From: Myxococcaceae bacterium
GTDB lineage: Bacteria > Myxococcota > Myxococcia > Myxococcales > Myxococcaceae
DNA length: 64,000 bases
Direction of reading: 5' to 3'
Assembly: GCA_016793095.1 (NCBI GenBank)
Contig: JAEUJQ010000046.1
Location: 1-64,000, forward strand
The notes under the pieces were generated by a model. The model did no database searches. It had not been told where the DNA came from and saw only the letters and a list, made by a program, of their open reading frames with translations. Below, in pieces: positions 7,366 to 51,625 of this stretch (the stretch's first letter is position 1; each line of letters begins with the position of its first letter). The position numbers and the translations under genes were made by a program.

Positions 7366-9153
7366 TTAGCACGGAATCGACTGGGGCGAGGTTCCTCCAC
7401 GCGCTGCGCCCTGGGAGCGCCAGAGCCGTGCATAGGCGCCCTCGCGCGCCAGCAGGGCGTCGTGGGAGCCCTGCTCCACCACCCGCCCGCGATCCAACAC
7501 GACGATGTGATCGGCGCCGCGAATGCTGGCGAGGCGGTGGGCGATCACGATCGCCGTGTGGCCGGGCAGCGAGCGCTCGAGGGCCGCCTGCACGTCACGC
7601 TCGCTCTCGGGATCCAGGTTCGAGGTCGCCTCGTCGAGGATGAGCACCGGCGCGCGGCTGAGCAGCGCCCGGGCGAGCGCGAGACGCTGCTTCTGGCCGC
7701 CCGAGAGCGTCACCCCGCGCTCTCCGATCGGCGTGTCGAGCTGCTGGGGCAGCGCGCCGATGAAGTCCCACGCCTGCGCGGCGCGACACGCGGCTTCGAG
7801 CTCCGAGGGGTCGGCTCCAGGTCTCGCGACCAGCAGGTTGTCGCGCACGCTGGCCGAGAACAGCAGCGGCTCCTGGGTGACGAGCGCGAACTGGCGCCTC
7901 ACGCTCGCGAGTGACAGGCCCTCGACGTCCACCCCGTCGAGCAGGTACCGGCCGCCCGACGGCTGCTCGAAGCGCAGGAGCAGCGTCGCCAGGGTGCTCT
8001 TGCCGCTGCCGCTCTCGCCGACGAGCGCGGTCACCTTGCCGGCCTCGAAGGTCACGCTCACGCCGTCGAGCGCAGCCCGCCCGTCCCATGAGAAGGCGAC
8101 CTGCTCGAGGGTGATGGTCTTCGACAGGGGTGGCGCGTCGCGCAGCCCGGGCCTGGACTCGACGCGCACCGGCAGGCGGAGCACGGCCTCGAGCCGCTCG
8201 AGCGCGACGCCCGCGGTGATGGCGAACTGACTCACGCGACCGAGGTCCTTGGCGGGCTGGTAGAGGAGGATCACCGCGCCGAGGAACGAGACGAGCGCCT
8301 CGGGCTCGACGGCGCCGCTCGAGGCTGCCCAGCCCAGAGTGCCAGCGATGGCGATCGAGGCGAGGATCTCCATCACGCCTGGCACGGCTGCGCGCGCCCA
8401 GGCCGCCCGCGAGAGCGACACCTCGGCGGCGGCGGTGCGGCGCTCGAACCGGTGGGCCTCGGCCACCTCGGCGTTGAACGCCTGAATCGCGCGCAACGCG
8501 CCCAGCCCTTCCTGCACCTGGCCGGCGAGGGCGCCCAGCGCGGTCTGCCCCTCACGCGTCCGCGCCATCAGCGCGCGGGTGAGGCGTGACGCCGGCACCA
8601 CCGCGATCGGGACCGCCGTCAACGTCAGCAGCGCGAGCTTCCACGACAGCGCCACCGCCACGGCCGCGAGGATGGCGATCTGCAGGGTGTCGCGCAGCCA
8701 GGAGGCCACCGTCCAGGTCGCCGCCTGCTCGACGGCGGCCACGTCGGCCGTGAACCGGCTGAGCAGATCGCCCGAGAGCAGCCGCGCCCGCTGCCCCGGA
8801 GACAGCCCCAGCAGCCGCGCGAAGACCTGCCGCCGCAGGTCCTTCACCACCTGCTGGCCGAAGAGCCCGACGAAGTAGAACTGCCCGAGGTAGCCGACGC
8901 CCTTGATCGCGCCGACGATCACCACCACCACGGGCAGCGCGACCAGCACACGCTCGCGGGGCCAGGTGGCGATCTCGGGGAAGAGCCGGGACACCAGGCC
9001 GAGGCCCTCGACGCCGCCGGTGAGGAGGAACCGAAGGGCGGGCCCCATGAGGAAGGCGTAGGCCCCCGTGGTGAGGCCGACGAGGCCCATGCAGGCGAAG
9101 GCGACGACGAGCAGCGACCGGTGCCTCCGCCCGAGCGCGAGCAGCTTCAGCAT
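7366..9153 (-). CDS. MsbA-like lipid A/LPS ABC exporter
   Basis: This 595-aa half-transporter has an N-terminal six-helix membrane domain and a C-terminal ATPase domain. Motifs are complete: Walker A GESGSGKST, LSGGQKQRLALARALL, Walker B VLILDEATSNLD and the H-loop IAHRLASI. MsbA-type exporters flip core-lipid A across the inner membrane, which fits its place at the head of the waaA-lpxK run and divergent from lpxB. The ATG at 9153 is chosen because upstream sequence enters the lpxB promoter region. The substrate is inferred from context. Confidence 0.88.
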   Translation of the reverse strand: MLKLLALGRRHRSLLVVAFACMGLVGLTTGAYAFLMGPALRFLLTGGVEGLGLVSRLFPEIATWPRERVLVALPVVVVIVGAIKGVGYLGQFYFVGLFGQQVVKDLRRQVFARLLGLSPGQRARLLSGDLLSRFTADVAAVEQAATWTVASWLRDTLQIAILAAVAVALSWKLALLTLTAVPIAVVPASRLTRALMARTREGQTALGALAGQVQEGLGALRAIQAFNAEVAEAHRFERRTAAAEVSLSRAAWARAAVPGVMEILASIAIAGTLGWAASSGAVEPEALVSFLGAVILLYQPAKDLGRVSQFAITAGVALERLEAVLRLPVRVESRPGLRDAPPLSKTITLEQVAFSWDGRAALDGVSVTFEAGKVTALVGESGSGKSTLATLLLRFEQPSGGRYLLDGVDVEGLSLASVRRQFALVTQEPLLFSASVRDNLLVARPGADPSELEAACRAAQAWDFIGALPQQLDTPIGERGVTLSGGQKQRLALARALLSRAPVLILDEATSNLDPESERDVQAALERSLPGHTAIVIAHRLASIRGADHIVVLDRGRVVEQGSHDALLAREGAYARLWRSQGAARGGTSPQSIPC

Positions 9154-9194
9154 CGAGCCGACGAGTGGAGATGACGACACGGGCCGCGGCACTG

Positions 9195-9207
9195 TACACA
9201 CGGGCGC
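9195..9207 (+). promoter_or_regulatory. Possible -10 element of lpxB close to the start codon
   Basis: TACACA (9195-9200) lies 7 nt before the lpxB GTG, in the 54-bp gap between divergent lpxB and the msbA-like gene. This spacing would place the transcription start at or near the start codon, suggesting a leaderless mRNA. No clear -35 is seen. Confidence 0.35.
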
Positions 9208-10353
9208 GTGAGGCCGCCGAGCGTTCTCGTCGTGGCAGGTGAGGCGTCGGGGGACGGGCACGGCGCCGACGTCGTGCGGGCGCTCAAGCGGTCGCGGTCG
9301 GACCTCGCGTTCTTCGGCATGGGCGGCCCGAAGCTCTCGGCCGAGGGGCTCGAGCTGATCCACGGCTCGCACGAGATCTCGGTGATGGGCATCGCCGAGG
9401 TGCTGCCGAAGATCCCCCGCATCTTGAAGGTGCTGGGCGACCTCGAGCGCGCCGCGAAGGAGCGCCGGCCGTCAGTCGCCCTCCTCATCGACGTGCCCGA
9501 CTTCAACCTGCGCCTGGCCGCGAGGCTCAAGGCGCTGGGCATTCCCGTCGTGTACTTCGTGGCGCCCATGGTGTGGGCGTGGCGCGAGGGCCGGGCGCGG
9601 CGCATCGGCGCGCTGGTCGATGAGCTCTGCTGCATCCTGCCGTTCGAGGAGCCGTTCCTGCGGGAGCGGGGCGTCAACGCCATCTACGTCGGCAGTCCGG
9701 TGCTCGATCAGGTCCCAGGAGCGGCCGAGCCGGTGCACTTCCGTCGAGCGCTCGGGCTCGATCCGGCGCGGCCCGTGCTGGCGGTGCTGCCGGGGAGCCG
9801 GCGTTCCGAGATCGCTCGGCTGGCTCCGCTGATGCGCGAGGTGGCGCAGGCGCAGCGCGACGCGCACCCGGGGCTCCAGGTGGTCGTCCCGGTCGCGCCC
9901 GGGCTTCCGAAGGAGCTGCTCCAGGGCGCGTTCGCGGGGGTCGAGGCGACGCTCATCGACGGCCGCGCGCCCGAGGTGGTGGGCAGCGCCGACGTCGCGC
10001 TGGTGGCGTCGGGCACGGCGACGCTCGAGGCGGGCCTGATGCGGCGGCCGTTCGTCACCATCTATCGCGTGTCGCCGCTCACCTACGCGGTCGGCAAGGC
10101 GCTGGTGCGCATTCCGTACTTCTGCCTCGTCAACCTGCTCGCCCAGCGCCGGGTCGTGCCCGAGCTGCTTCAGGGGGACGTCACGGTGCCGCGGGTGGTG
10201 GCCGAGCTCGAGAAGCTGTGGGCCGGGCCGGAGCGGGAGGCGTGCCTGGTCGGCCTCGACCAGGTGCGCGCGTCGCTGGGGCCGCCGGGGGCCGCGGCGC
10301 GGGTGGCCGAGCGCGTGCGCTCGTACCTCACGAAGGAAGTTGCGGGGCCTTGA
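9208..10353 (+). CDS. lpxB: Lipid-A-disaccharide synthase
   Basis: LpxB (381 aa, GT19) joins UDP-2,3-diacylglucosamine and lipid X to form lipid A disaccharide. It begins with VLVVAGEASGDGHGADV and has FFGMGGPKL, the catalytic-region segment LIDVPDFNLRLA, YFVAPMVWAWREGRA, LAVLPGSRRSEI and the C-terminal ASGTATLEAGL. Its GTG start is followed at once by family sequence, and a possible -10 box lies 7 nt upstream. It is divergent from the rest of the lipid A genes. Confidence 0.96.
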   Translation: MRPPSVLVVAGEASGDGHGADVVRALKRSRSDLAFFGMGGPKLSAEGLELIHGSHEISVMGIAEVLPKIPRILKVLGDLERAAKERRPSVALLIDVPDFNLRLAARLKALGIPVVYFVAPMVWAWREGRARRIGALVDELCCILPFEEPFLRERGVNAIYVGSPVLDQVPGAAEPVHFRRALGLDPARPVLAVLPGSRRSEIARLAPLMREVAQAQRDAHPGLQVVVPVAPGLPKELLQGAFAGVEATLIDGRAPEVVGSADVALVASGTATLEAGLMRRPFVTIYRVSPLTYAVGKALVRIPYFCLVNLLAQRRVVPELLQGDVTVPRVVAELEKLWAGPEREACLVGLDQVRASLGPPGAAARVAERVRSYLTKEVAGP

Positions 10354-10376
10354 GTCCTCTGCTTTTCATCCCGCTC

Positions 10377-10811
10377 ATGCACCTTCCCACTCTGCTCCGC
10401 TCCGCCGTGGTCCTCGCCGTGCTCGCGCTGTCGGCCTGCAGCAACCCGATCGGCATCTACCGTGGCACCACCACGCAGACGCTGTCGGCCGGGGGAATGA
10501 CCCAGACCAAGACCATCGCGGGAGACCTCGTGACCGTCTTCGCGAGCAACGACCCCAACTCTCTCGTCTTCGAGTCCACCGGGCTCGCGTACACGGCGAC
10601 CAAGAGCGGTGACGCGCTCACCTTCCCTGGCGGGCAGGCGCAGACCATCACCGAGACGAACGGCATGAGCAGCACGACGCTCACCAGCGGCACCGGCACG
10701 CTCACCACGACGAGCCTGACGCTGAACCTGCTGCTCACCGTCTCGCAGACCGGCGGCGGGCAGACACAGAACACGAACGCGACGATCGCGTTCACCGGTC
10801 AGAAGATCTGA
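10377..10811 (+). CDS. Small predicted outer-membrane lipoprotein
   Basis: This 144-aa protein has a type II signal peptide with lipobox LSAC (Cys21) and Ser at +2, which predicts outer-membrane sorting. The mature part is rich in Thr, Ser and Gly (for example TLTSGTGTLTTTSLTL) and looks like a small beta-sheet protein. No named family is recognised. The ATG at 10377 is chosen for the lipoprotein signal. It lies 23 bp after lpxB on the same strand and may be cotranscribed. Confidence 0.75.
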   Translation: MHLPTLLRSAVVLAVLALSACSNPIGIYRGTTTQTLSAGGMTQTKTIAGDLVTVFASNDPNSLVFESTGLAYTATKSGDALTFPGGQAQTITETNGMSSTTLTSGTGTLTTTSLTLNLLLTVSQTGGGQTQNTNATIAFTGQKI

Positions 10812-10841
10812 GCAGCAGCTGAAGGGTTCGTGGAGGTCAGC

Positions 10842-12770
10842 TCAGGGCACCAGCGGCCCGAGGTTGACCTCCATGTCGTTTCCGGCCGAGACGCTCACCT
10901 TCTTCGGCTTCGACTTCACGCCCGAGAAGGCCGCGCTGATGGTGTAGGTCCCCTCGCACAGCGTCACCTCCCGGAGCGAGTTCGGCTTGCCCGGCAGCTT
11001 CCGGCCGTTGACGAAGAAGTCGCCCAGCGGCTCCACCTTGAGCGTCAGCCGGGCGCGCGCGTTGACCAGCTTCAGATCGACGGCGTCTCCCGGCTCGAGA
11101 TCGACCTCGGCTGACTTCGTGCACATGAAGGCGCCGTTGGTCGCCTCGATGAGGTGATGGCCCGGCGCGAGCTCGAGGACGGCGGGGGTGTTCCCGAAGT
11201 CATGGCCTCCGCTCGTCACCCGCATGACGATGTCGGAGGTCACGCGAACGACTGACGCCCGCGGGTCGCCCGCGTCAACCTCGGGGAACGTCGACACGAA
11301 CGCCGAGCCGGCGTCTTCGGCTGGCGACGCGGGCTCGACATCGGCGCCGGCGTCGACGACGGCGATCGGAGCGACCAGCGCAGCCCCCGCGTCCTGCGAG
11401 CTGGCGGCGGGGCGGCCTCCAGGGTTCAGCAGCAGGACCGACACGATCACCACCACCGCGAGCCCGCCCAGCACAAACCACTTCGTCAGCGAAGACTTGC
11501 CGGCGTCCTGCGAAGCGACGAGCTCGTCGGCGACGGCGTCGCGCACCCTCTTCCGGTCGCCGATGATGGCGGTCGACTGCAGCTGAGGCGGGAGCGGCGC
11601 GGGCAGCTGCGTCGTGGGCTTGAGGGCGTCTGGCTGCTCGGTCGGCAGCACCGGCTTCAGCGGCTCCGCTGGCGTGGCCTGCTGAACGGGAGGCGCGGTG
11701 ACGCGCATCGACGGGGCCGTGGGGGCGACGCCGAGGGCGAGGTCCGCGGTGGACGAGCGCGCGCCCGGATCCGAGGGGATCTCCTGCTCGGTACGCGCCC
11801 CGCCCCACGTGTGCTGCGCCCCGCCAGGCGAGAGGTGCGGTGGGGTGCCCGGCTCGAGGTGAGCGACCTCGGCCGCGACGACCCGGAACAGGCGCAGCAG
11901 ATCCTCCTGGCCGATCGGCTGCCCGACGAAGCGCAGGTACTTCTCGAGATCCTCCTTGAGCGCGAGCGCGGTCGGGTAGCGGCCCTCGCGGTCAGGGTGC
12001 ACGCAGCTGGCGAGGATCTGCCTGAGCGGCATCGGCAGGTTGGGCCGCAGCTGCTCGATGGGGCGAATGCGCGACGCGCGCGCGTTGTCGATCTGCTCGA
12101 CCTCGGTGTTGCCGGCGATCGCGCGCGTGTTGGTGAGCAGCTCGTACAGCACCAGCCCGAGCGCGTAGACGTCGACCCGCCGATCGATGTCCTGCCCGGT
12201 GATCTGCTCGGGCGCCATGTACGGGTACTTGCCCTTCACCAGCCCGGCCTGCGTGCGGTGGGTGGCGGTAGCGGCGCGCGCGACGCCGAAGTCGATCAGC
12301 TTCACCACGCCGGTCGTGGACAGCAGCACGTTGTGCGGTGAGACGTCGCGGTGCACGAGGTTCAGCGGCTGACCGGTCTTCGGGTGCTTCGCGTCGTGGG
12401 CCGAGTGCAGGGCGCCGGCGACGTCGGCGATGATGCGCGCGCACAGCTCGGGCGCCATCAGCTCGCCCTGGCGCTCGTGCTCGAGGCTGATCGTCATCAG
12501 ATCGAAGCCCGGCACGTACTCCATGGCCAGGTAGTAGGCGCCGTTGACCTGCCCGAGGTCGAAGATCTCGGCGATGTTGGGGTGGTGAACGCTCGCGAGG
12601 ATCGCGGCCTCGTCGAGGAACATGCGCACGAAGTCGGGGTTGGCGCAGAGGTGCGCGTGCGGCCGCTTGACGACACACACGCCGCGAGGCCCGTGGGCCA
12701 GAAAGACGTCGGCCATGCCGCCGGACCCGATGCGCTTGTCGAGGGTGTACGGCCCGAGCGTCTCAGCCAT
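10842..12770 (-). CDS. Ser/Thr protein kinase with C-terminal PEGA domains
   Basis: This 642-aa Hanks-type kinase has glycine loop GSGGMADV, Lys35, Glu54, HRD at 140-142 (as HRDVSPHN), DFG at 160-162 and APE at 186-188, so it should be active. The N-terminal kinase domain (~7-290) is followed by a Pro/Ala-rich linker, a single membrane helix near residue 440 (VVVIVSVLLL) and an extracytoplasmic part with PEGA-like repeats (VEPLGDFFVNGRKL). This layout is common in myxobacteria. ATG 12770 is chosen because kinase homology begins at once; the substrate is unknown. Confidence 0.9.
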   Translation of the reverse strand: MAETLGPYTLDKRIGSGGMADVFLAHGPRGVCVVKRPHAHLCANPDFVRMFLDEAAILASVHHPNIAEIFDLGQVNGAYYLAMEYVPGFDLMTISLEHERQGELMAPELCARIIADVAGALHSAHDAKHPKTGQPLNLVHRDVSPHNVLLSTTGVVKLIDFGVARAATATHRTQAGLVKGKYPYMAPEQITGQDIDRRVDVYALGLVLYELLTNTRAIAGNTEVEQIDNARASRIRPIEQLRPNLPMPLRQILASCVHPDREGRYPTALALKEDLEKYLRFVGQPIGQEDLLRLFRVVAAEVAHLEPGTPPHLSPGGAQHTWGGARTEQEIPSDPGARSSTADLALGVAPTAPSMRVTAPPVQQATPAEPLKPVLPTEQPDALKPTTQLPAPLPPQLQSTAIIGDRKRVRDAVADELVASQDAGKSSLTKWFVLGGLAVVVIVSVLLLNPGGRPAASSQDAGAALVAPIAVVDAGADVEPASPAEDAGSAFVSTFPEVDAGDPRASVVRVTSDIVMRVTSGGHDFGNTPAVLELAPGHHLIEATNGAFMCTKSAEVDLEPGDAVDLKLVNARARLTLKVEPLGDFFVNGRKLPGKPNSLREVTLCEGTYTISAAFSGVKSKPKKVSVSAGNDMEVNLGPLVP

Positions 12771-46347: not shown

Positions 46348-47337
46348 TCACCTACCTGTCGGCTGGATCATGCGAATGAGGCGCTCGAGGTCGCCGTGGA
46401 CCTCCAGACCGGCGACCTCCCCCACTTCTTCAAACACCGTCCCGCCTCCCACCTCCGACAGCCGCACCTCGATTCGGGCGTCGAGCGACTCTTCGACGCG
46501 CTTGTGCATCTCGGTGCGCACGGGCGCGTGCAGCAGGCCTCCAGCGGGCCGGGTGCTCGTCAGCTCGAGGCGATGGCGACGATCGGCGAACGCCAGATGA
46601 ACACGCTCGTCCTCGAGCACGAGGCGTTCGAGGCGCGCACCGGTCCAGGTCGCGAAGCGGTAGAGCGTGCCCTTGACCCAGAGCCCCGCGATGAGGCCGG
46701 GGAAGCTGCCGGTCAGCCACGGGATGATCGCCGCCGACGCGAGCACGCAGGCCTCGCGCGTCGCGAAGTGGTTCGACTGCATCCACACGTAGCCCGCGGG
46801 GAAGGCCTGGCCCCAGTCCTTCTCGAGGTACCCGACGCCGCCATCGAACGAGACCTCACGACCCTCGACGCTGAGGGTCCCCGACAGGGAGTGCCAGAGG
46901 CTCACGACGCCGTGGTAGCACTCCATGAACGGCGCCCAGGCGAAGGGGCCCATGATGCCCGGAGCGGCGAGCGTCACCGGCCACGGGTTCAGCTCCGAGA
47001 ACGAGAGCTGGCCCTGGAGCGGCCCCTCACGCAAGGCGAGCGAGACGCCCTTCGCTGAGAACGAGTTCGGGCCGACGCGCACGTCGAACGAGCCGACCTT
47101 CGCGTCGAACTCGGTGCGCTCATACCGGCAGAACCAGCTGCGCTTCGTCGCGCCGTCGAGCACCTGCACGAACGCCTCGCCGCCGCCTTCGGGGCCAAGG
47201 AAGATCCCGGGGATCACCGCCCAGCGCTGGGCGCGATCGGCCGTCACGAGCTTGACGTACCAGCCCTCGAAGAAGCGGCGCGTGCGCCCGTGGCCGTGGA
47301 AGCCCTCGGGGTGGAGCAAGGACGTGAAGAACCCCAT
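46348..47337 (-). CDS. Tocopherol cyclase-like protein
   Basis: This 329-aa protein matches the tocopherol cyclase-like family: FHGHGRTRRFFEGWYVKLV near residue 15, SLWHSLSGTL, YLEKDWGQAFPAGYVWMQSNHF (~180-200, the family hallmark) and PWLTGSFPGLIAGLW. Plant and cyanobacterial members close the chromanol ring of vitamin E; bacterial members are mostly uncharacterised and may act on other lipids. Start ATG 47337. A vitamin E pathway is not evident nearby. Confidence 0.78.
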   Translation of the reverse strand: MGFFTSLLHPEGFHGHGRTRRFFEGWYVKLVTADRAQRWAVIPGIFLGPEGGGEAFVQVLDGATKRSWFCRYERTEFDAKVGSFDVRVGPNSFSAKGVSLALREGPLQGQLSFSELNPWPVTLAAPGIMGPFAWAPFMECYHGVVSLWHSLSGTLSVEGREVSFDGGVGYLEKDWGQAFPAGYVWMQSNHFATREACVLASAAIIPWLTGSFPGLIAGLWVKGTLYRFATWTGARLERLVLEDERVHLAFADRRHRLELTSTRPAGGLLHAPVRTEMHKRVEESLDARIEVRLSEVGGGTVFEEVGEVAGLEVHGDLERLIRMIQPTGR

Positions 47338-47353
47338 GCGCCGTGCAGCGTAC

Positions 47354-48181
47354 TCACGTCTCGAAGGAGACCGGACAGCTGTCTTCGAAGAAGCGCTCCG
47401 CATGGGACTCGCCCGGCAGCACCGGCTCCCATCGCGCCAGCATTCGCTCGAGGGCCAGGTGTGGGACGACGCGCTCGCGGGTGGAGTTGCGGACCTGCTG
47501 CAGCCGCGCGCTCACCTCGAGCGAGACGAAGGTGACGTGACACCCGGCGTGAACGAGCCAGTCGAACAACCCCCGCCGCTCGCGCGCTCGCAGCAACGTC
47601 GAGTTCCACGCGAAGGGTCGGCCTTCCGCGATCAGCGCCCGGGCTCGCGCGAAGGCCGCCTGCCTGATCCGCTGGGGCTCTTCGCCGTGACCGATGGAGA
47701 GCTCGGCGCGGAGCGCGTCGAGCGAGACGACGGGACGAGCCGGGCATTCGCGGGCGAGCCAGGTGTCCTTTCCGGCGCCCGGCAGCCCCGACATCACCAG
47801 CACCTGTAGCCCCTCGGGCGCGGGGGGACGGGGGACGCGGCACGTGTCCCAGGCTCCGCTGGCCTCGACCGTCGCCCGCGCCTCACCTGAGAGCGGCGCG
47901 ACCTCATTCAACATGCGCCACGTGACGACCCTGAGGGTGGCGGCCGCGGGCGCAGCGGCCGAACGCACCAGCTCGACGCACTGCTCCCGGTGCACGAAGG
48001 GCACGCCCGCCCGCCAGAGCGCGACCCGGAGCGCCAACGCCTGGCCGGAGCTCCGGGCCGCCTCGACCGAAGGCCACGTGGAGCGCACACGCCGTGCCGC
48101 CTCGATGGACCACTCCCTGGCCGCCACACCGCTCCAGTCCGGGAGCGGCGGCAGACGGACGGCTGACGGGCGAGCGCTCAT
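47354..48181 (-). CDS. P-loop polynucleotide-kinase-like protein of the RNA-repair locus
   Basis: This 275-aa protein has an uncharacterised ~125-aa N-terminal helical part and a C-terminal kinase: Walker A GLPGAGKDT (132-140), SLDALR with probable base Asp155, FAWNSTLLRARER and a lid with Arg231/235/237 (RNSTRERVV). This order matches T4 Pnk/PNKP-type 5'-OH kinases. Its ATG overlaps the RNA ligase stop (ATGA), so a role in phosphorylating 5'-OH RNA ends before ligation is inferred. Confidence 0.78.
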   Translation of the reverse strand: MSARPSAVRLPPLPDWSGVAAREWSIEAARRVRSTWPSVEAARSSGQALALRVALWRAGVPFVHREQCVELVRSAAAPAAATLRVVTWRMLNEVAPLSGEARATVEASGAWDTCRVPRPPAPEGLQVLVMSGLPGAGKDTWLARECPARPVVSLDALRAELSIGHGEEPQRIRQAAFARARALIAEGRPFAWNSTLLRARERRGLFDWLVHAGCHVTFVSLEVSARLQQVRNSTRERVVPHLALERMLARWEPVLPGESHAERFFEDSCPVSFET

Positions 48182-48951
48182 GGCCTGACCCCGGCGAGCA
48201 GGTTGGGCACCAGCGGCCGGCTCGCCCAGTGAGATCCCGACGACGCGATCGCCTGTCTGAACCCCGGGCGCACGAACTTGCAGCGGCTGACGAACCGGCC
48301 CTCGCGCTCGAGGCGGAAGGCGAGGCCCTCCATCACGCCCGAGAGCTCGGTCTGGGCGCGCTCGCGGTCGAGGTCGAGGCCCCGCGCGACGATGAGCGCC
48401 TCGAAGGCGTCCTGCAGCCTGGGCGACGCGAACCGGCTTCGCCCGAGCAACGCCTCGACCGGCGGCAGCTCACGACCCGGGCCGCGCCAGAGCTCCGGCG
48501 CCTCGACGAAGCCCAGGCCCGAGAGCAGCCCCCGACGCTCCGCGGTGCCCAGGAAGCGCTGCGCCCCCAGCTCGAGCGCGTCGAAGACGAAGAGGTAGGC
48601 GCTCAGCGAGTCATAGAAGACGGTGTGCTTCGCGTAGAGCCACTCACCGTACAGCACGTACCGATCGCCGAGCCGCGCGAAGCAGGCTGGCGCCGCGGCC
48701 GCGACCTGCGCCTTGAGACGATCGAACCAGGGCTCGTTGCCGAGCAGGTGGGCGCGCGAGAAGAGCCAGGGACGACCCGACGCGTCGAAGCGCAGCCCGA
48801 TGTTGATGCCGTCGAGCTTCTCGGTCACGACGACCTCACCCTCGAGCGCGCGGCGACGCATGCGAGGCACGTCGTCGTCGCCCGGCTGGAGCTCGGATCC
48901 TTCGAGGTGCGGCGTGCGCGGGAACTTCACGATGTCCAACGGCGCACCCAT
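48178..48951 (-). CDS. RNA ligase (Rnl2-like)
   Basis: This 257-aa covalent nucleotidyltransferase has motif I EKLDG with Lys45 as AMP acceptor, motif III YGEWLYAK (Glu103), IIIa FVFDAL, motif IV MEGLAFR (Glu208) and motif V CKFVR (Lys225). It joins RNA 3'-OH and 5'-phosphate ends. ATG 48951 fits the family start; the extra nine codons upstream are unneeded. It is coupled to the kinase and divergent from the 868-aa end-processing protein. Confidence 0.88.
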   Translation of the reverse strand: MGAPLDIVKFPRTPHLEGSELQPGDDDVPRMRRRALEGEVVVTEKLDGINIGLRFDASGRPWLFSRAHLLGNEPWFDRLKAQVAAAAPACFARLGDRYVLYGEWLYAKHTVFYDSLSAYLFVFDALELGAQRFLGTAERRGLLSGLGFVEAPELWRGPGRELPPVEALLGRSRFASPRLQDAFEALIVARGLDLDRERAQTELSGVMEGLAFRLEREGRFVSRCKFVRPGFRQAIASSGSHWASRPLVPNLLAGVRP

Positions 48952-49018
48952 GGCGGACTCCGAGCTCTTCGCGGCCACGCGTTCAGGGAACGGGTCCTGC
49001 TACCGTCCACCGCGCGTC
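48952..49018. promoter_or_regulatory. Shared divergent promoter region of the RNA-repair locus
   Basis: The 67-bp gap separates the ligase-kinase pair and the 868-aa gene, so both promoters must lie here or within the coding ends. TACCGT (49001-49006), 12 bp before ATG 49019, is a possible -10. No RtcR-type enhancer or sigma54 -24/-12 site was seen. Confidence 0.4.
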
Positions 49019-51625
49019 ATGGACAAGGACCCGGACAGACACCCGTTTCCTGACGGGCAGCGTGTCTACCACCAGCTCCGGTGGGATCCGCGGTTCGACG
49101 CCAGCGCGTGTGAGATCGTGCTGACCGATCGCCCCACTGGCACCAAGGTGATCGCGTTCCGCGACTTCCTGCCGAACGGCCCCATTCCCTGGCACCGCAT
49201 CGTCGGCTTCCGCTACCGCGGCGAGGTGCTGTGGGATCGCGCCGCGCGCGTCGATCGTCGCCACGAGGCGCTCGAGGGCACCCTGGGGAGCGGCGCACCG
49301 GTTGTGTCGGTCGAGCTGCTCGAGCCGCGCGAGGCCGAGGTGCTGCCTGCCTCTGCGCCGACGTCGGACCTCAGCGAGCGGCCCGTGGTGGTGACGTGGA
49401 ACGTGCTGAGCGACACCTGGCACGGCGAGCTGATCGATCACCCCGCGCGCTGGAAGCGGCTGCTCGACGAGACCCTGAGCGCCTCGCCAGAGCTCGTCGT
49501 CTTCACCGAAGCGACGCAGTCCTTCTTCGCGCTGCTGTGCGTGCACCCCGGGATCCGGGAGCGGTACACGATCGTGTCCAGCGAACACTCCGACGTGGTG
49601 TTGCTGTCGCGCGCCACCCCGCTGAAGACGGCTCGCTACGAGCTGGCGCCCGGCCGTGAGGTGCTCACCTGCGCGTTCGACGAGCTCGTGCTCGCCGGGG
49701 TTCACCTGCCCAGCGATCGGGAGGGCAGCCGGCGCGCCGAGCGGGAGCGCGACCTCGAGCGGATCTGCCAGACGCTCCTCGGCTCGGGCTCGCTCGTGAT
49801 CGCCGGCGACCTCAACGCAGCGGACGACGAGCTGCGGCGCCCGGGAGCGCTCGACGCATGGGCCACCGCCACCCCCTCAGCGCCCGGGCTCACCTATGAC
49901 GTCGAGCGCAACCCGCTCGCCGCCGCGCTCACGAAGCGGGGCCGCTCGGGTCGGCTCGATCGCATCCTCGTCTTCGGCGACCGGCTGACGGCGCGCGAGG
50001 CGCGGCTGCTCGGCACGGGGCCTCAGCACCTGTCAGATCACTTCGGGCTCGTCGCGTCGCTCGAACCCACGGCCCGGCGGGTGACGTCGCACCGCACCGC
50101 GGTCGTGCTGCTGCCGCCGGCCGAGGCCTGGGGCCCCCTGCAGAGGCTCCGCGCCCGCTTCGACGAACGCTTCGAGCGCTGGCCGCCGCACGTCACCCTG
50201 CTCTACGGCTTCGTCGAGGGACCGCAGCTCTCCCCCGCCATCACCCGACTGGCCGAGGCGGCGGCCGGCCTCACGCCGCTGGAGCTCTGCTTCGATCGCG
50301 TGATCACCTTCGAGCACGAGACGAGCACCACCGTCGCTCTCGCGCCGTCGAACCCGGCTCCGCTGCGCGCGCTCCAGGCGCGACTCGTCGAAGCGTTCCC
50401 GTTCTGCCTCGAGCAGAACCGCGGCGAAGGCGGCACCTTCACGCCGCACCTCTCGCTGGGGCGGGTGGGCAGCGCAGGTGACCTCCAGACCCTCCGTCGG
50501 GAGGCCGCCACCCTGGGCCTGACGTTCCCGGCCCACGCGCTCACCGTCCTCGAGCGACCGGCGAACACGTTCGAGGTGCGCGCGACCATCGACCTCGGAG
50601 CTCGCGGCGCTGAGCGCCCACCAGCCGTCCTGCGCCCGCCCGACGAGCTGGAGCGGACCGTCCGGGCGGCGGTGGAGGAGACCTTGCGCGAGCTCGACCT
50701 GGAGGCTTCCGTCGAGCCCTTCGGCTCCCGCGCCTGGGCGCCGAGCCTCACCGGCAGCGATCTCGATCTGCTCGTCACCTTGAAGCGAGGCGCGAACACG
50801 ATCCTCGACGTGCTTCAGCAACGGCTCGCGCCCGCGCGGCGCGTCTCGGCTCAGGTGCTGCGCGGCGAGCGCTTCGACGTCGTCGCCATCGACGCTGACG
50901 CCGGGGACGAGGACTCCCGACGCTTCTCGCTCGGGGTCGCCGACGCACGGCGGCTGCGCGACCGGCTCGAGCGGCACGGGCGCGCGCAGCTCTTCGATGC
51001 GGTCATTCCGCGGCTGAGGGCGTGGAGCCGGCGGCGCGCCCTCGAGGGCAACGCGTTCGGCTACTTCGGCGGCATCGGCTGGGGCGTGCTGCTGGCGAGC
51101 CCCCTGCTTCACGATCCAGAGCTCTGCGGCGTCGGGCCCGGTGACGCGTTTCAGGCCTGGGCGCGCTGGGCCGCGCGGCTCGACCGACGAGCCCTGGTGT
51201 GCCTGGACCCGTCGCCCCGCTTCGAGGCCGATGGCTTCACCGTGCTCAGCCCTGCCCAGCCCTGGCGACCGATCACCAGGGCCCTGATCGCCTCCACGTC
51301 CGCGACGCTGCTGGACGAGCTCGCCCATGTTGGGGAATGGGAGACAAGCGAGGCGATCGACGTGAACGCCTGGCTGACCTTCCGCGGCCCGGCGACCGAG
51401 GTGGGCGCCTGGCTGCAGCGGTGTCTGTCGATCGTCTCCGCCCTCGACCGCGAGCTGGGGCCGGTGCTCCGCGTGCGCGGGGAAGCGCCCCTCGTCCGCG
51501 AAGGCGAGTTCACCAGCCGCGTGGGGCTGCGCACGAACGACACTGCCAGGGCGCAGGCGCTCGCCTCGCGGCACTTGAAGCGGCTCGAGCTGTCGCAGGT
51601 CCGGGTGTTCGTCGACAGGCCCTGA
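49019..51625 (+). CDS. Multidomain RNA end-processing protein (DUF504-EEP-2H-PAP)
   Basis: This 868-aa protein has four domains. Residues ~10-78 match DUF504/MJ1316 (LRWDPRFDAS, IPWHRI, GEVLWDR). Residues ~122-348 are an endonuclease/exonuclease/phosphatase fold (TWNVLSD, Glu164, His229, GDLNA, LSDHFG). Residues ~357-525 are a 2H phosphoesterase (H391-V-T, H477-L-S). Residues ~540-868 resemble eukaryotic poly(A) polymerase: PFGSRAW...GSDLDLLV (D581, D583), GYFGGIGWGVLLA and SPAQPWRPITR. It can plausibly open cyclic phosphates, remove phosphates and add nucleotides at RNA 3' ends. It is divergent from a ligase-kinase pair. Confidence 0.85.
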   Translation: MDKDPDRHPFPDGQRVYHQLRWDPRFDASACEIVLTDRPTGTKVIAFRDFLPNGPIPWHRIVGFRYRGEVLWDRAARVDRRHEALEGTLGSGAPVVSVELLEPREAEVLPASAPTSDLSERPVVVTWNVLSDTWHGELIDHPARWKRLLDETLSASPELVVFTEATQSFFALLCVHPGIRERYTIVSSEHSDVVLLSRATPLKTARYELAPGREVLTCAFDELVLAGVHLPSDREGSRRAERERDLERICQTLLGSGSLVIAGDLNAADDELRRPGALDAWATATPSAPGLTYDVERNPLAAALTKRGRSGRLDRILVFGDRLTAREARLLGTGPQHLSDHFGLVASLEPTARRVTSHRTAVVLLPPAEAWGPLQRLRARFDERFERWPPHVTLLYGFVEGPQLSPAITRLAEAAAGLTPLELCFDRVITFEHETSTTVALAPSNPAPLRALQARLVEAFPFCLEQNRGEGGTFTPHLSLGRVGSAGDLQTLRREAATLGLTFPAHALTVLERPANTFEVRATIDLGARGAERPPAVLRPPDELERTVRAAVEETLRELDLEASVEPFGSRAWAPSLTGSDLDLLVTLKRGANTILDVLQQRLAPARRVSAQVLRGERFDVVAIDADAGDEDSRRFSLGVADARRLRDRLERHGRAQLFDAVIPRLRAWSRRRALEGNAFGYFGGIGWGVLLASPLLHDPELCGVGPGDAFQAWARWAARLDRRALVCLDPSPRFEADGFTVLSPAQPWRPITRALIASTSATLLDELAHVGEWETSEAIDVNAWLTFRGPATEVGAWLQRCLSIVSALDRELGPVLRVRGEAPLVREGEFTSRVGLRTNDTARAQALASRHLKRLELSQVRVFVDRP

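Follow-up and report, generated by a model that had tools for sequence, protein, structure and literature searches.

The window analysed here comprises the first 64,000 nucleotides of contig JAEUJQ010000046.1, from a Myxococcaceae bacterium (GenBank assembly GCA_016793095.1). It carries three adjacent genes which very probably constitute an RNA-repair module: a kinase and a ligase gene on the minus strand, overlapping by 4 nt, and, divergent from them on the plus strand, a gene for an 868-aa protein that unites, in this order, an MJ1316 (DUF504) domain, an endonuclease/exonuclease/phosphatase (EEP) domain, a 2H phosphoesterase domain and a domain resembling canonical eukaryotic poly(A) polymerases (PAP). 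We consider it likely that the locus is a heal-and-seal system in which the four-domain protein processes the 3' side of an RNA break, the kinase the 5' side, and the ligase joins the two. Heal-and-seal RNA repair as a class is known; what is distinctive here is a 3' processor that includes a canonical eukaryote-type PAP.

An earlier note on this DNA, made from the sequence without database searches, had proposed these four domains in this order, and domain searches of the 868-aa protein found them: Pfam and family profiles agree. Pfam places the EEP domain (Exo_endo_phos, PF03372; 2.4e-9) at residues 125-341 and the 2H domain (2_5_RNA_ligase2, PF13563; 8.8e-31) at residues 366-514, while the MJ1316 domain is the only one in the window genome. 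Among 40 homologues, conservation of the key residues is complete or nearly so: P57, W58, H59, R60, W72 and R74 of MJ1316, the EEP residues N128, E164, H229, D264, N266, S339, D340 and H341, both catalytic histidines of the 2H domain (H391 and H477), and G569, D581 and D583 of the PAP domain are invariant; D620 is present in 38, the other two having Glu. Chance assembly of motifs is thereby excluded. The AlphaFold2 model of the protein has a mean pLDDT of 86, with 37 sequences in the alignment. Among the structure matches listed by Foldseek the EEP domain dominates, PAP alpha and yeast Pap1 appearing once each; the PAP and 2H assignments therefore rest on sequence profiles.

For the PAP domain these profiles are strong. 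Taken singly, the window protein matches PAP_central at 6e-4 (residues 659-693), under the family's Pfam cut-off, though its Calothrix homologue does so at 1.7e-29, and a family profile built from 37 homologues finds human PAP gamma (4e-57), PAP alpha (2e-51) and yeast Pap1 (8e-50), over some 300 residues that take in the PAP palm, the central domain and the first part of the RNA-binding domain. By this measure the C-terminal domain is a homologue of the canonical poly(A) polymerases of eukaryotes, in line with the eukaryote-like PAP domain of the earlier note. Within Myxococcota, the eukaryote-type PAP central domain occurs inside this four-domain architecture only: matches were obtained in 49 genomes, all of them in four-domain loci.

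The two minus-strand products likewise fall into known families. The ligase, besides its Pfam match (PF09414), displays nucleotidyl-transfer motifs I (EKLDG), III (GEW), IV (EGL) and V (CKFVR), with E44, K45, D47 and G48 invariant among 13 relatives; the profile of these relatives finds T4 RNA ligase 2 (Rnl2) as its best PDB match (E 0.0017), and the description of the protein as Rnl2-like stands. In the kinase, whose P-loop domain occupies residues ~125-253, both Walker A and the SLDxLR motif are kept without variation; the latter supplies D155 and R158, in polynucleotide kinases the expected general base and RNA contact, respectively. The profile built from 11 kinase domains has matches to the Pnkp kinase of Clostridium thermocellum (4gp6; 3e-15), to T4 Pnkp (9e-12) and Pnkp1 (6e-6), and likewise to mammalian PNKP; 4gp6 and its relatives are titled 'Metallophosphoesterase', and we take this entry to be the CthPnkp kinase domain. 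Judged by profile, then, the 275-aa protein belongs to the Pnkp kinase family, in keeping with the 5'-kinase first proposed. Its N-terminal ~120 residues have no recognised fold and are poorly modelled by AlphaFold2. A search of phages for the ligase family returned one weak match, without a linked four-domain gene.

Querying genome contigs with the single protein gave no match; an alignment-based query succeeded. The four-domain protein is carried by many genomes of the Myxococcaceae and Archangiaceae, by Actinobacteria, by metagenome-assembled deltaproteobacteria and by a conjugative Calothrix plasmid. In Actinobacteria, directly upstream of the four-domain gene in 48 of 50 distinct loci lies a ligase-kinase fusion gene, whose stop codon overlaps the four-domain start or is a few bases from it in most cases; apart from this fusion, none of the genes around these loci is recurrent. 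Of 150 Streptomycetaceae genomes sampled, 43 have the four-domain gene, as do 20 of 151 from the order that includes Thermomonospora echinospora; sampling the actinobacterial phylum evenly yielded 3 full-length copies in 396 genomes. A quick tree resolves the window's genus, the Myxococcaceae and the Actinobacteria as three separate, well supported groups. In two phyla, then, a predicted 3' healing enzyme for cyclic phosphate, the 2H domain, is linked to ligase and kinase.

Within the genus of the window, the trio is present in genomes G000, G003, G004 and G006, the four-domain gene of G003 being split across two contig ends. Genome G001 provides an empty site: the genes flanking the trio of G006, namely TolC-like, small DUF and tocopherol-cyclase-like genes to one side and ABC-F to the other, are joined, and the trio is absent. 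The three genes thus form a cassette that is gained or lost as a whole. In a set of 195 Myxococcota genomes, only the four with the trio have close homologues of the ligase. The earlier note's identification of an RNA-repair locus is accordingly upheld by the conserved trio, the empty site and the actinobacterial operons. The two computational outcomes that would have refuted it, domain searches drawing a blank and a lack of trio conservation, were checked for and did not arise. The trio is kept in these four genomes, and the same enzymes recur in Actinobacteria as a compact pair of genes in one operon, but most Myxococcaceae carry the four-domain gene solo.

Variants of the loci were also seen. 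The trio of G004, otherwise intact, is interrupted between ligase and kinase by an unrelated gene (L034:3576-4784), whose product is secreted and von-Willebrand-A-like, with a DSSGSM motif and glycine-rich repeats. In genome G036 a ligase gene and a kinase gene belonging to these families are paired (L208:5322-7219), and no four-domain gene was found there; the sealing half has a different setting in this genome. Tandem, diverged four-domain genes occur in Pyxidicoccus fallax (L061:4680-7856 and 7893-11273) and at G138:C333:3215-9787. Short open frames retaining the MJ1316 part only are found in Myxococcus vastator, M. xanthus and a Myxococcus sp. (L074, L075 and L076) and at L073 and L037-L039; in this subset of Myxococcus and relatives the remaining three domains (EEP, 2H, PAP) have apparently been lost. 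Streptomyces plasmids encode two-domain MJ1316-2H proteins (L110:4298-5161, on a Streptomyces exfoliatus linear plasmid, and L111:7821-8501); animal LENG9 has this pair as well. A 1,585-aa ligase-kinase-MJ1316-EEP-2H-PAP open reading frame in G737 (L205:2987-7744), considered as a Rosetta-stone fusion, was rejected: the junction is a frame-shifted kinase C-terminus, the frameshift being a sequencing error or a recent mutation.

Toxin-type RNases leave a 2',3'-cyclic phosphate and a 5'-OH. At such a break the MJ1316 domain would bind the 3' end carrying the cyclic phosphate, the 2H domain, as 2H enzymes do, would open this to a monophosphate, and the EEP domain would strip the monophosphate to leave a 3'-OH; the PAP domain could then add nucleotides to replace any lost from the 3' end, the kinase would add a phosphate to the 5'-OH, and sealing of 3'-OH to 5'-phosphate would fall to the Rnl2-like ligase. 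The RNA so mended would most likely be tRNA or rRNA. That all of these steps run, and in this order, is plausible, though we would not quite expect it. MJ1316 has been described as a recogniser of 2',3'-cyclic RNA ends (PMC6514570), and in the T4 system Pnk heals tRNA and Rnl1 seals it (PMC2610378). Nucleotide-loss lesions are exemplified by RloC, which excises the wobble nucleotide (PMC2610378); re-extension by the PAP homologue of nucleotide-depleted 3' ends before ligation, by which such lesions might be mended at least for continuity, is a doubtful proposal, and no link between RloC and this locus was found. The Tpt1/KptA 2'-phosphotransferase (PF01885) is absent from all seven genomes of the genus, controls being positive; a 2'-phosphate must therefore be removed by another enzyme, for which the EEP domain is a likely candidate.

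Several findings weigh against the heal-and-seal reading, and the first concerns precisely this step. A precedent for it exists in ANGEL2, an EEP protein that converts 2',3'-cyclic phosphate to 2',3'-OH (PMC13247085), but the EEP domain here is nearest not to ANGEL2 but to TDP2, a phosphodiesterase, both by sequence profile (E 3e-22) and, among the matches listed, by structure (Z 25, rmsd 2.2 over 221 aligned residues); the phosphatase step is thus a guess, and of the 'EEP phosphatase/nuclease' of the earlier note it is the EEP domain that is confirmed, rather than clearly a phosphatase. The domain might instead work on the 5' side, or clear adducts (proteins or other groups) from RNA ends in TDP2 fashion—TDP2 takes the VPg peptide off picornavirus RNA (PMC7077319)—or it might trim the 3' end as an exonuclease ahead of extension by the PAP domain. 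We regard this as possible, if rather unlikely; it would still be RNA repair, and as a variant of the mechanism above it shares part of the confidence placed in that mechanism. The match to TDP2 is one of fold, the residues compared being the general EEP set only; its rank may reflect how few general bacterial EEPs have been solved, and neutral sphingomyelinase, Nocturnin, PDE12 and CNOT6L follow, among the matches listed, at Z 20-22 (the last three at 20-21). Fusion to MJ1316 and 2H domains, moreover, points to work on 3' cyclic ends.

The other contrary findings concern gene content. RtcB, which already seals cyclic-phosphate ends, is present in six of the seven genomes of the genus, so that the trio would be a second, chemically different route; in two of the 50 actinobacterial loci no ligase-kinase gene adjoins the four-domain gene; the Myxococcaceae loci read with ~8 kb of flank are solo, none having ligase or kinase nearby, and most of the genomes concerned lack a similar ligase. 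The 3'-end processor is therefore separable and usable without this ligase. It could be that the four-domain protein serves RNA surveillance or decay, stripping cyclic phosphates from 3' ends and adding a tail by which broken RNA is marked for degradation, and that some lineages acquired the ligase and kinase in addition: the solo genes of most Myxococcaceae, the Calothrix plasmid copy and the homology of the PAP domain to a genuine tailing enzyme all speak for this. It leaves unexplained the near-obligate ligase-kinase neighbour in Actinobacteria and the gain and loss of the genes as a unit in the genus, and we consider it improbable.

Less probable still is ligation of the Trl1 or plant type, in which the 2H domain would leave a 2'-phosphate to be sealed in and later removed by Tpt1/KptA. 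Ligase-kinase fusion together with a 2H cyclic phosphodiesterase does reproduce the activity set of yeast Trl1 (PMC5434554). The enzyme needed for the last step is, however, the one missing from the seven genomes of the genus. The ligase, moreover, is Rnl2-like, and ligases of this class are not known to need a 2'-phosphate. Finally, the divergent arrangement of the window genes, which are not one operon, might suggest a housekeeping gene that happens to lie beside a ligase operon; the chance of this is negligible, given recurrence across phyla in differing gene orders and presence or absence as a unit, and a purely accidental neighbourhood was rejected on the strength of the 48 actinobacterial loci and the empty site of G001.

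As to the trigger of the heal-and-seal system proposed here, the suggestion that it answers RNase toxins, for example anticodon nucleases, did not find support: no toxin gene recurs beside the actinobacterial loci. Scanned with the PADLOC models of anti-phage defence, the ligase, kinase and fusion gave no match, and one weak nucleotidyltransferase match to a candidate model was obtained.

The three open reading frames lie where the earlier note had placed them, apart from the ligase start: alignment of four genomes favours ATG 48951 over GTG 48978 (Table 1). A four-genome alignment of the divergent intergenic region shows partial conservation, and a promoter scan of it found no sigma-70-type consensus. 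Adjoining the kinase gene is a tocopherol-cyclase-like gene (PF14249; window positions 46348-47403), a flank kept in five genomes of the genus, one of them without the trio.

Table 1. Genes, domains and intergenic region of the putative repair locus, in window coordinates
Feature	Position	Strand	Basis
Pnkp-type polynucleotide 5'-kinase, 275 aa	47354..48181	-	AAA_33 3.6e-17; profile to Pnkp kinases
Rnl2-like ATP-dependent RNA ligase, 257 aa	48178..48951	-	PF09414 3.1e-21; profile to T4 Rnl2
Divergent intergenic region, ~67 bp, between ligase and four-domain genes	48952..49018	.	four-genome alignment
Four-domain (MJ1316-EEP-2H-PAP) putative 3'-end processor, 868 aa	49019..51625	+	open reading frame and Pfam; AlphaFold2 mean pLDDT 86
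MJ1316 (DUF504) predicted RNA cyclic-end recognition domain, residues 14-74	49058..49240	+	PF04457 1.9e-12
EEP domain, TDP2-like, residues ~119-352	49373..50074	+	PF03372
2H phosphoesterase (cyclic phosphodiesterase) domain, residues ~356-527	50084..50599	+	PF13563
Canonical-PAP-like nucleotidyltransferase: palm (GS..DxD, D620), central and RRM-like C-terminal parts, residues ~541-868	50639..51622	+	family profile

If the proposed mechanism is right, bacteria—43 of the 150 Streptomycetaceae species sampled and a myxobacterial genus—possess an RNA-repair system with its own enzyme for rebuilding 3' ends. The MJ1316 domain would acquire a function and the canonical eukaryote-type poly(A) polymerase a bacterial home; a single protein able to render RNase-type 3' ends ligatable could also be of use in sequencing methods. 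The earlier note knew of no experimental description of such a combination, and a literature search found none; the general class, on the other hand, was already known in silico. Burroughs and Aravind (NAR 2016) reportedly described ligase, kinase, phosphoesterase and nucleotidyltransferase in one unit, together with the MJ1316 prediction (as cited in PMC6514570), and may have listed this exact architecture.

Comparison with known systems sets the locus in context. The tRNA repair of phage T4 (Pnkp with Rnl1; Rnl2) likewise combines a 5'-kinase with an ATP-dependent ligase that needs 3'-OH and 5'-phosphate, but T4 heals the 3' end with the Pnkp phosphatase, whereas here MJ1316-EEP-2H would take that part and a PAP domain is added. 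Fungal and plant Trl1/RNL (ligase-kinase-CPDase) also bring ligase, kinase and 2H together, and in Actinobacteria the first two are fused as well; the present system differs in its Rnl2-like ligase, in its extra MJ1316, EEP and PAP domains, and in belonging to a genus without Tpt1/KptA. The bacterial Pnkp-Hen1-Rnl complex resembles it as a dedicated multi-enzyme heal-and-seal apparatus with a related kinase domain; its metallophosphatase and Hen1 methyltransferase were found in none of the three proteins by Pfam and NCBIfam searches (bacter_Pnkp, E 0.018, is far under cut-off), and the 3' processor is another. The MJ1316/DUF504 repair proteins reportedly surveyed by Burroughs and Aravind, LENG9 included, share the joining of MJ1316 to end-processing domains and the predicted recognition of cyclic ends. 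Pap1, PAPOLA and PAPOLG align with the last domain from the palm through the central domain into the beginning of the RNA-binding domain; they are free polymerases, whereas here the domain is part of a bacterial multi-enzyme protein.

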